A stretch of DNA of 64,000 nucleotides from the NCBI RefSeq assembly GCF_002894645.1, contig NZ_NCQY01000020.1:455926-519925 (forward strand), in the 5' to 3' direction. A program made the translations under genes and the position numbers. Under the pieces are notes generated by a model that searched no databases, was not told the origin of the DNA, and was given only the letters and a program-made list of their open reading frames with translations. Position 1 is the first letter of the stretch. The number at the start of each line of letters is the position of its first letter. Source of the stretch: Salinibacter altiplanensis (GTDB lineage Bacteria > Bacteroidota > Rhodothermia > Rhodothermales > Salinibacteraceae). This document shows positions 24,396-29,292 of the stretch, in pieces.

Positions 24396-24594
24396 GGTAG
24401 AACGTACGTGCTAATTTTTGAGGTCGACGAGCGCAGGATGTATCCTTTGCTTGAATGTGCACCCCGACGACACGCAGAAGCCTCCCCGTACCCATCCACG
24501 AACGAAACGAAGAAGTAACGGGCGCCGACGCGATCCTCTCGATCCCGGTCGTCCGTTCTCCATCGCGTTTTCCCGAGTGCAACCCCGTGCTAAC

Positions 24595-26172
24595 ATGAGT
24601 ACATCCGAACACGCCGCCCGTGCCCATCGCGAGCTGTACGAGGCCCTGCAGCGCCGCCGCGAGGAGGCCGCAACCGGAGGGGGGGAGGCACGCATCGAGC
24701 GGCAGCACGACAAGGACAAGCTGACGGCCCGCGAGCGGCTCGACATCCTGCTCGACGACGACTCGTTTGAGGAGCTGGGCACGTTCGTCCGCCACCAGGA
24801 GACCCACTTTGATCTCGACGAGAACCGCCCGCCAGGTGATGGGGTGGTCACCGGCTACGGCACCATCAATGGCCGTCTCGTCTACGTCTTCAGCCAGGAC
24901 TTTACCGTTTACGGCGGCTCGCTGGGCCGGGCGCACGCCGACAAGATCGTGAACGTGATGGAGAAGGCCCTCGAAAACGGCGCGCCCGTTATCGGCCTCA
25001 ACGACTCTGGCGGGGCGCGCATCCAGGAGGGCGTCAAGTCGCTCGGCGGCTACGCGGACATCTTCAAGCTCAACACGGAGGCCTCCGGTGTCGTCCCGCA
25101 GATTTCGGCGATCATGGGGCCGTGCGCCGGGGGAGCGGTCTACAGCCCCGCCATCACCGACTTTACGGTCATGGTGGAGGACACCAGCTACATGTTTGTG
25201 ACCGGGCCCAACGTGGTCAAGACGGTTACACAGGAGGAGGTGACGGCGGCCGACCTGGGTGGGGCGCGCACCCACGCCACCAAGAGCGGCGTGAGTCATC
25301 TTACCTGCGCGAACGACGTGGACTGCCTCCGACGGATCCGTGAGCTCGTGGGCTACCTGCCGCAGAACTGTGAGGAGGACCCGCCGCGGGTGCCGCGGGC
25401 GGAGGTGGAGGATGCGCACGACGGGGCGGCCCTCGACGCGCTGGTGCCGGAGGACCCGAACAAGCCCTACGACATGCGCGACGTGATCCGGCACCTCGTC
25501 GACGCCGACGATTTCTTCGAGATCCAGCCCGACTTCGGCGAGAACCTGATCACGGGCTTTTCGCGCATCGGGGGGCGCCCGGTGGGCATCGTCGCGAACC
25601 AGCCGGCGGTGCTGGCCGGCACGCTCAACATCGACGCGTCGATCAAGGGCGCCCGCTTTGTGCGGACCTGCGACGCGTTCAACGTACCGCTGCTCGTGTT
25701 GGAGGACGTGCCCGGCTTCCTGCCCGGCACCGACCAGGAGTGGAACGGCATCATCAAGCACGGGGCCAAGCTGCTCTACGCCTTCTGCGAGGCCACCGTC
25801 CCCAGGGTTACCGTCATCACGCGCAAGGCGTACGGCGGGGCCTACGACGTGATGAACTCGAAGCACATTGGCGGCGACCTCAACTTCGCCTGGCCCACCG
25901 CCGAGGTGGCCGTGATGGGGCCGAAGAGCGCCGTCGAGATCATCTACCGCGACGAGCTGGACGCGGCGGACGACCCGGAAGCGGCGAAGGAGGAGTTCAC
26001 GGAGCAGTACCGCGACCGCTTCGCCACCCCCTACGTGGTGGCGGAGCACGGCTACGTCGACGATGTCATCAAACCCAGCGAAACGCGCGAGCGTCTCATC
26101 CGAGGCTTCGACATGCTGGAAAACAAGGTCGTCAACAATCCGCGAAAGAAGCACGGCAACATGCCACTGTAG
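24595..26172 (+). CDS. pccB: Propionyl/acyl-CoA carboxylase carboxyltransferase (beta) subunit
   Basis: The 525-residue cytoplasmic product has both crotonase-like halves of a biotin-dependent carboxyltransferase: N-terminal ~25-270 ([47 protein letters not shown]) and C-terminal ~290-525 ([31 protein letters not shown]). It transfers carboxyl from carboxybiotin to propionyl- or acetyl-CoA. Length and motifs match PccB. No biotin carboxylase or biotin-carrier gene is in the window, so the partner is encoded elsewhere. The ATG at 24595 ([18 protein letters not shown]) is the family-typical start. Confidence 0.93.
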
Positions 26173-26292: not shown

Positions 26293-26406
26293 GCACCCGC
26301 TGCTGGGGGCGTCCCGGCGTGGCGTACTGCCACGACTGGGGCTGAGACTGCACCCTTCGAACCTGACCCGGTTCACACCGGCGTAGGAATGGATTGCGTT
26401 CGGTGC
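26293..26406 (+). ncRNA. TPP (thiamin pyrophosphate) riboswitch aptamer
   Basis: The conserved core of a THI-box is present in order: GGGG..., then CTGAGA at 26342-26347, CACCC, GAACCTGA, the P5 pair CCGG/CCGG around a short loop, and GCGTAGGAA at 26381-26389. GCACC at 26293-26297 can pair with GGTGC at 26402-26406 as closing stem P1. A variable P3 arm (GGCGT...ACTGCC region) sits between the first GGGG and CTGAGA, as is common. It binds TPP and normally turns off the downstream gene. Expression is further controlled by the intrinsic terminator at 26433-26470; the downstream gene is a TonB-dependent receptor, fitting thiamin uptake. Confidence 0.94.
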
Positions 26407-26432
26407 CCGTTTGGGCGCCGTCCTATGGCACG

Positions 26433-26470
26433 AGCCGCTTCCCATCAGTTCTGATGGAGGCGGCTTTTTT
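26433..26470 (+). terminator. Intrinsic terminator of the TPP riboswitch
   Basis: AGCCGCTTCCCATCAG (26433-26448), loop TT and CTGATGGAGGCGGCT (26451-26465) make a ~15-bp stem with one bulge and one G-U pair, followed by six T residues. It starts 27 bases after the aptamer. This is the expected expression platform: TPP-bound aptamer allows the terminator to form, giving transcription attenuation. Confidence 0.85.
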
Positions 26471-26483
26471 GGTGGCCCCCATC

Positions 26484-26678
26484 AGAAGCTGTTTGGTGAA
26501 TGGATATTTTACCGAGACACAGCGGGCGACGGGCACGAGCGGGGCCCAAACGAGCCCTGTAGCGGGGGCCGAGCAGGAGCGAGGTCATGCCCGTGGTGAG
26601 CGACCGGGCGAGTGCAGAACCTGTTCTGCCCAAGATCCGCAAAGTCGCAGGTCATAGACAGTCCGCCAAACAGCTTCT
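26484..26678. repeat. 195-base element bounded by a perfect 13-bp inverted repeat (MITE-like)
   Basis: AGAAGCTGTTTGG at 26484-26496 and its exact complement CCAAACAGCTTCT at 26666-26678 enclose ~170 bases with no coding frame. The repeat could be extended with one mismatch. I did not see a clear target-site duplication. It lies between the riboswitch terminator and the receptor gene, so it lengthens the leader. It looks like a miniature inverted-repeat element or IS remnant, but could be a long-range RNA stem. Confidence 0.5.
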
Positions 26679-26718
26679 CAGTGTTTCACCGCCTTGTCTG
26701 CGCATCTCCGACTGACTG

Positions 26719-28700
26719 ATGGCTTCGTTCCGGCATACGTTTGCGCGTTCCGTGTTTGTGTTGAGCATCCTCCTGTGTGCAGGAGATGGTGTGGGCGCCC
26801 ATGCCCAATCCGACCCGACGGCGACCGTTGCAGGACGCGTCGTTCAAACGGCAACCGGGGCCCCGCTTCCAGGGGCCAACATCGTCCTGCGTGACCCGAA
26901 CACGGCGGCCCGCCGCTACGGCACCGGGGCCGACTCGACGGGCGCCTTCATCTTGCAAGACGTCGCCCCGGCGCGCTACCGGCTCGTCGTCACCTTCGTC
27001 GGCCATGCCCGCTACACCGACCGCCTGCGGGTCCGGGCCGGCACGACGGTGCACGACACGATTGCCCTTGATGCACGGGCCCTCTCTGCACAAGAGGTTA
27101 CGGTAACGGCACGCCGCGCCGAGGCCCGGCTTGATCCCGTCACGGTGAGCACCCTGACGGAGACAGAGGTCGACCGTCAACTCGGCGTACAGGACGTGCC
27201 CTCGCTCCTTTCGGACATGCCGTCCACCACGTTTCACTCCCAGAACGGAAACGGCATTGGGTACTCCACCCTCCGCATTCGCGGATTTGGCCAGCGGCGC
27301 CTCGCAGTCTCCCTCAACGGCGTTCCGCAAAACGACCCGGAGGACTACGACGTCTACTGGGTCAACCTCTACGGGATGGAGCCCGCGATTGAGGACGTGC
27401 AGGTGCAGCGGGGGGCCGGGGCCTCGACGTATGGCTCGGTCGGCATCGGAGGGGGCATCAACGTCGTTACCGATCCCTTCGAGCCCACGCCGTTTGTTCG
27501 GGCGCGAGTTGGGGCCGGCTCGTTCGACACGCGCCGCCTCTCGGTGACGGCCAACAGTGGCCTGCTCGGCGACCGCTACGTGGTCAACGCCCGCTTCAGC
27601 CGCGTGTCCTCGGACGGCTACCGCCGAAATGCATGGACCACCTTTACCCGATTCTTTGGGGGACTGGCCCGCTACGGGGACCGGTCGACCCTCAAGGTGC
27701 AGGCGTTTGGGGGGCTCCAGAAAGACGGGCTCGCGTTCAGTGGCATTCCCAAATCTGCCAACGACGACGTGGAGGCACGCCGACAGACCCCAAGTGCCGT
27801 CTCCGACGACCGCGAGCGGTTCATCCACCGCAGATTCACCTCACCCACGAGTGGCGGGTTTCGCCGACGTGGATGCTCAATCAGACAGCTTTTTGGATCA
27901 AGGGCGACGGACACTTCGACTACGGCGCTCCGTACCACTCAGCCGCCTTTCTCCGCCTGCCGGACGACGTTGCAAGTGGCGGGGAGAGGCTGACCGACGC
28001 CGATCCCCGACGCTGTAGTGGGGGCGGACGCGACCCATCGACTCTGGCAGTACCGGAGCGAAAAGATCATCACGTCGGCCTTTGCTTCGCATCTGTTTCG
28101 TCCGGTCGACCAATTGGCCATTCAGGCCGATCTGCAGCGTACCGGACGCCGGTATCGCTTCTACGATGAGAACACGTTCGGCCGTGAGAACATGCGGTCG
28201 CACACGTTCACAAAGCCCTATTTCTTTGCCAATCCACGGCTCGGCGCCACGCCCCGGTTCGAACAACGCGCCGACGGCACCTACAACTACGACCAGACGC
28301 TCATTGAGCCCGAGCAGCTCGTGGACGTAGAGCTGGGGGGCACCCTGGAGCGTCGTCGCTATCGCCTTTCGGTCAACGGCTTTTGGATGGAGTTCTGGGA
28401 TGAGATTGTGCAGTACGTCGACAACGCAGGGGGCACAACGGCTTCGCGACGAGAAGACGGGACGGTGACGGAGGAGGAAGAGGACACCTTTACGGTTGTC
28501 CCCTACGCCCTCTTCGGGGCATCTCTCACCTACGAGCCCCCTCAACGTCTCTGTTTGGTGGCCTCCGGCTACAGGTGAAAGCCGATAATTTGTTCGACAC
28601 GCACGTGCTCCGGCACGGCTTTCTGGGGACGGGCGGCCCCCGGTTCTACCCGGCGGCGACGCGAAATCTCTTCGTCGAACTGCGGTATACACTTCGCTGA
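26719..28700 (+). pseudogene. TonB-dependent receptor, frameshifted (probable thiamin receptor)
   Basis: The frame starting at 26719 encodes a signal peptide (~1-28), a carboxypeptidase-regulatory domain (~33-115) and the plug plus first barrel strands (TLRIRGFGQRRLAVSLNG, VQRGAGASTYGSVGIGGG). It is normal to ~27830. Coding then continues in another frame (THEWRVSPTWMLNQTAFWIK), returns to the first near 28005 within a CCCC run, and moves again near 28535-28550 so that the C-terminus (VKADNLFDTHVLRHGFLG ... ending VELRYTLR) ends at 28700. At least three single-base indels, probably four, break an otherwise full-length ~660-residue receptor. The TPP riboswitch upstream identifies it as the likely thiamin receptor. 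Sequencing errors in homopolymers are the alternative. Confidence 0.8.
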
Positions 28701-29007
28701 TGACGCATCTGTGAAGCCGAAGAGCCCGGAAGGCGCTCCGCTCTCCCCTTCCCAGTCATCGCCTGAAATGGTTGTGGCCGTCGTTGCGTGAGCCGGGACC
28801 ATTCGGCGACGCAGGACGCTGGAGATCGGCAGTGTCTGGACTCTGGACCCCGACGGCGCGGCCAGTGGGGGGCGGAGGAGGGGCAGTGCCGTTGCTTGTG
28901 TCGGCAATAGGGGCGTGGATGTATTCGGGCAGCCGGCGGCACACTATGCCCTCAACCAACCTCGGCAGGGGGCGCCGTACAGCCGTTCGCTGGGCAGTCA
29001 GAAGATC
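28701..29007. other. Intergenic region, nothing identified
   Basis: This gap lies between the end of the broken receptor and the GIY-YIG gene end (convergent). One frame reads protein-like for ~35 codons (VDVFGQPAAHYALNQPRQG around 28915-28975), but it has no start, no family match and ends without context; it may be debris from the same decaying locus. Confidence 0.3.
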
Positions 29008-29292
29008 CTATTCCGCGGGGCGTATGAGCTGCTCCTTCGCTGCCCGTCGCAACTGCTTGATCGCGTACTCCCGCTGCATGGCCGCCGACTGGCTCTCGTG
29101 GGGCTCGGTGTAGACCAGTTCGACGGGGCGCCGCCCGCGGGTGTACTTCGCCGCCGTGCCGTCGTTGTGCTCCGCGACCCGCCGCTCCACGTCCGTCGTG
29201 TACCCGGTGTAGTAGGTGCCGTCGCTACACTCGACGACGTACACGTGGTGCCCGCCGGAGGCATCGGAATGGGGGGAGGACGAGGGGGGCAC
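29008..29292 (-). CDS. GIY-YIG domain protein (YhbQ/UPF0213-like)
   Basis: This 94-residue protein is almost entirely one GIY-YIG nuclease-fold domain: VYVVECSDGTYYTGYT carries the two signature strands, followed by R-x-x-EHN (RRVAEHN), RRPVELVY and a conserved E in AMQREYAIKQL. Family members are small, single-domain proteins of uncertain DNA-processing role. The start is a GTG at 29292 (MPPSSSPHS); no ATG lies close, and upstream in-frame residues look non-coding. It is divergent from the RAM-domain gene across a 112-base intergenic region. Confidence 0.85.
   Translation of the reverse strand: MPPSSSPHSDASGGHHVYVVECSDGTYYTGYTTDVERRVAEHNDGTAAKYTRGRRPVELVYTEPHESQSAAMQREYAIKQLRRAAKEQLIRPAE

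Follow-up and report, generated by a model that had tools for sequence, protein, structure and literature searches.

The receptor locus described here is very probably a pseudogene that lost its function recently. It derives from a TPP-riboswitch-linked gene for a TonB-dependent outer-membrane receptor, the substrate of which was presumably thiamin or a precursor, and its loss was probably tolerated through redundancy. It is a case of ordinary gene turnover, in which a known kind of receptor has become a young pseudogene. In the model that we favor, this receptor and a second one would have worked in parallel to take up thiamin or its pyrimidine precursors. Several deletions have cost the gene its reading frame and about 608 bp of barrel-coding sequence, and a 193-bp MITE has inserted upstream of the start codon, behind the riboswitch terminator.

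The locus is part of a 64,000-nucleotide stretch of DNA (the window; G000:C15:455926-519925) within a Salinibacter-group genome, G000, which comprises 3.59 Mb in 30 contigs with a completeness of 99.75%. The species is represented by this one genome, and the lesions at the locus are known from it alone. Gene presence and absence were counted in a genus set of 13 genomes, and five intact receptor copies served as references, namely, a paralogue on contig C3 of the same genome and one copy each in G004, G007, G008, and G009. A scan of named genomes found a single relative, a Salinivenus MAG, and a search of a plasmid collection returned short matches only, two of which were to the 193-bp repeat element described below, in Salinibacter ruber plasmids.

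Lesions in the receptor gene

The in-frame part of the remnant (Table 1) matched the Pfam Plug (2.9e-16) and CarboxypepD_reg (4.9e-13) domains and was 68% identical to the intact C3 paralogue. A tblastn search with that paralogue covered the window in five pieces, with the frame shifting between them. The paralogue carries barrel (1.8e-32) and plug (8.9e-18) in one protein, whereas the window remnant has the plug only, and none of its pieces gave a barrel match in the Pfam search. By alignment against the five intact copies, we determined that one base is gone after 27822, 194-197 bp near 27997, 108 bp near 28250, and 306 bp (318 bp relative to G008) near 28409, the last two in frame, and that a further base near 28547 is missing when the gene is compared with four of these five copies. 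These five disrupting lesions, set against five intact copies, mark the gene as a pseudogene, and all of the sequence lost comes from the barrel-coding part.

The original prediction had described a full-length receptor broken by several single-base indels. The position of the gene and its broken frame were confirmed, as was a first shift near 27830 with a base missing, which is the loss after 27822. The extra C reported in a CCCC run near 28005 proved to be the edge of the 194-197 bp deletion, and the two indels placed at 28535-28550 are in the right place but amount to one net frame change. The 108-bp and 306-bp in-frame deletions had been missed, and the receptor is not full-length.

Of the three large deletions, two have lengths divisible by three, a pattern that could reflect an origin of some of them while the frame still mattered or could be due to chance. 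We do not claim deletion via short direct repeats: G007 alone has a 10-bp in-register repeat on either side of the 108-bp segment, and no short direct repeats were found at the flanks of the other two large deletions.

Two of the lesions are single-base losses, within reach of base-calling errors, and the first reading of the sequence had raised homopolymer errors, in which case the organism would carry an intact gene and the indels would be artefacts. Deletions of 194-197, 108, and 306 bp, however, cannot be homopolymer errors. Furthermore, the flanking orthologues (carboxyltransferase, M14 peptidase, and sulfate permease) are single-frame against G010, G003, or G004, and the closest other copy that this genome contains has only about 70% identity, which makes collapse of paralogous reads implausible. 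We consider sequencing or assembly error to be highly improbable.

Table 1. Positions of the features at the receptor locus, with those of the ThiY-like genes elsewhere (window coordinates unless a locus is named)
Feature	Position	Strand	Details
Carboxyltransferase gene, intact, left flank	24418..26172	+	Pfam Carboxyl_trans 1.8e-195; 88% DNA identity to G004
TPP riboswitch aptamer (RF00059)	26295..26406	+	53.1 bits, E 1.4e-9; apparently undamaged
Rho-independent terminator-like hairpin with T run	26432..26470	+	-23.2 kcal/mol, z -4.8
TCA target duplications (3 bp) around MITE-like element	26482-26484 and 26678-26680
MITE-like element, 193 bp	26485..26677	+	ends GAAGCTGTTTGGTG ... CGCCAAACAGCTTC (terminal inverted repeats)
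Receptor remnant, in-frame part	26719..27822	+	signal region, CarboxypepD_reg domain, plug, barrel start
Receptor remnant after single-base loss	27823..27997	+	ends at 194-197 bp deletion
Receptor remnant, barrel piece	27998..28250	+	ends at 108-bp in-frame deletion
Receptor remnant, barrel piece	28251..28409	+	ends at 306-bp in-frame deletion
Receptor remnant, C-terminal barrel piece	28410..28700	+	single-base loss near 28547; normal stop position kept
tblastn pieces 1-3	26719-27822; 27786-28004; 28003-28410		frame 1; frame 3; frame 1
tblastn pieces 4-5	28411-28542; 28512-28697		frame 1, about 100 residues skipped; frame 3
GIY-YIG domain gene, intact, right flank	29008..29264	-	Pfam GIY-YIG 9.7e-20
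ThiY-like (NMT1) two-piece remnant, G000; frame change, G004	L143 3126-3420; L144 4018-5032	+; -

A second receptor and thiamin salvage in the genus

The intact paralogue, at G000:C3:469674-472271, has its own TPP riboswitch (62.2 bits) and is followed by a sodium:solute (SSS) symporter gene and then by TenA. The same three genes occur in G008, with the symporter 71% and TenA 74% identical; the window copy has neither a symporter nor TenA adjoining it. Together, the riboswitch and the TenA and symporter neighbors of the paralogue suggest that the substrate of the window receptor would have been thiamin or a pyrimidine precursor.

We also looked for thiamin synthesis genes, a check proposed in the original prediction. 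ThiC was found in none of the 13 genomes of the genus (against 13 positives among 14 control genomes), and both ThiG and ThiE were found in all 13. Because ThiC is missing while ThiG and ThiE are present, the genus probably relies on salvage of the pyrimidine half, in the manner of a pyrimidine auxotroph; without ThiC, each member has to take up either thiamin or a precursor of its pyrimidine part.

These data bear on the proposal, also made initially, that the break reflects the organism having lost thiamin uptake, read here as uptake of vitamin B1 or of a precursor. A TPP-riboswitch-linked receptor is indeed broken, and a second salvage gene, coding for a ThiY-like binding protein, is likewise a remnant in G000. 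However, the same genome holds an intact receptor-symporter-TenA operon under its own riboswitch, and a cell without ThiC must take its pyrimidine source from outside, so that a loss of uptake is very unlikely. Under the redundancy that we favor, loss of the window receptor would be tolerable because the intact riboswitch-linked C3 receptor, with its symporter and TenA, presumably serves the same need.

Other salvage genes also vary among the genomes. Intact genes for the ThiY-like (NMT1) binding protein are found in G003 and G010, and in G004 the gene is split over two frames. A separate contig of G004 (G004:C6; L127 1510-3087, minus strand) has two tandem TenA genes, with a sub-threshold TPP riboswitch match (46.8 bits) upstream of them. 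As a lead from few genomes, salvage routes seem to have been swapped within the genus.

The arrangement can be compared with two known systems. In Bacteroides, OMthi (BT2390) is a TPP-riboswitch-linked TonB receptor whose role in thiamin use has been tested (PMC5613172), and omr1 is also listed in PMC10881298. As with OMthi/OMR1 of Bacteroidetes, the TonB-dependent receptor here follows a TPP riboswitch, its gene order is variable, and it is kept or lost among relatives. Unlike OMthi/OMR1, the window copy is a pseudogene, and downstream of the C3 paralogue lie an SSS symporter and TenA instead of pnuT and tnr3. In thiC-lacking Pelagibacterales, the symporter gene thiV is found next to a TPP riboswitch and tenA (PMC10881298). 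This matches the missing thiC in the genus and the C3 operon, where a TPP riboswitch stands beside a sodium:solute symporter and tenA, but the C3 operon includes a TonB receptor too and the window copy lacks both partner genes.

The riboswitch and the element in the leader

At 53.1 bits, the TPP riboswitch in the receptor leader falls slightly below the Rfam gathering score of 54.3 and was missed by a default scan; it was recovered by a local search at an E-value threshold. The riboswitch at the syntenic G004 site scored 53.9 bits. The terminator hairpin was not reported by a simple scan but was seen by folding, which gave -25.8 kcal/mol (z -3.3) for its G004 equivalent, and it is presumably the expression platform of the riboswitch. 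Elsewhere, a weak TPP riboswitch match (49.7 bits) was seen at the start of a short-chain dehydrogenase gene at G000:C29:542276-542379 (L126 4277-4380, minus strand), and G003 has a match of 50.0 bits before a similar gene. Further sub-threshold matches were found in G010 and G004.

Between the terminator hairpin and the receptor start codon lies a 193-bp element, which separates the riboswitch from the gene. The receptor was correctly predicted to have a riboswitch; the insertion between that riboswitch and the start codon had been overlooked. The element has the anatomy of a MITE: it is short, has terminal inverted repeats and a target duplication, exists in many copies, and leaves no space for a transposase gene. 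It has 25 matches in its own genome and is present in 11 of the 13 genus genomes, and where both ends of a copy were measured, the two 3-bp flanks were mostly identical, either TCA or TGA. G004 represents the empty site, with one TCA only. In the search for a parent insertion sequence, an exact scan of G000 for the terminal inverted repeat pattern found no pair at full-element spacing, and a literature search combining Salinibacter, MITE, and insertion sequence found no paper. We note that up to 36 matches to the element were seen in G011.

The aptamer and hairpin look undamaged and the first 368 codons are open and conserved, as they would be if the riboswitch and the open frame of 424 residues, which covers the plug and N-terminal domain, had been kept for a new regulatory or periplasmic role after barrel loss, for example as a truncated periplasmic protein or a TPP-binding decoy RNA, but a young pseudogene would look identical, the MITE stands between riboswitch and gene, and no plug-only version was found among the relatives examined, leaving such a role extremely improbable.

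The same site in relatives and the age of the inactivation

The right flank of the locus is 84.8% identical to that of G004 over 7.1 kb. Between the corresponding neighbors, G004 carries a riboswitch and an intact receptor, which is therefore the syntenic orthologue; the comparison of orthologues that had been recommended at the outset thus found the gene unbroken at this position in G004. In G010, G003, G005, and G006, only 47-68 bp separate the neighbors, and both riboswitch and receptor are missing from the gap. The window copy and that of G004 have in common an insertion of one codon at 28449-28451, which is absent in the other four copies. The receptor tree paired the window with G004 weakly (63/54), and the common position and common codon insertion support this pairing. 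Two trees of the flanks conflict on the placement of the window, and the riboswitch and receptor may have been gained in the line toward G000 and G004, or lost elsewhere. The spacer at 28703-29023 gave no convincing match. The receptor is about 70-76% identical to that of G004, compared to 85-88% for the flanks, and the intact copies diverge equally; the receptor may have evolved fast or been replaced.

Across 598 codons aligned in six copies, the tip dN/dS was 0.17 for the window copy, compared to 0.19 for G004 and 0.20 for the C3 paralogue, although with dS of about 1 between copies any dating by dN/dS is coarse. The relaxed selection expected of an old, neutrally drifting pseudogene was not seen, and the remaining aligned codons contain no in-register stop before the normal end. 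Private changes sorted by codon position were uninformative because columns in which the five other copies agree are biased to conserved positions, and dN/dS was used instead. Since the substitutions still carry the mark of strong purifying selection and no in-register stop has appeared, the inactivation looks recent. Most of the separate history of the window copy appears to have passed under purifying selection, and on that coarse scale the break was probably recent, as the original prediction had suggested.

In Salmonella, young pseudogenes are removed fast by deletion (Kuo and Ochman 2010, PMC2916853). Like young bacterial pseudogenes in that study, the window copy has multiple deletions and substitutions that still show old purifying selection; unlike that study, ours concerns a single locus without a strain series to date the events.

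Taken together, these data show vitamin B1 salvage genes that come and go in a halophile group, with the same site empty in some relatives, intact in G004, and broken in G000. The genus seems to swap its import route. This is not surprising, but it helps annotation and the prediction of auxotrophy.
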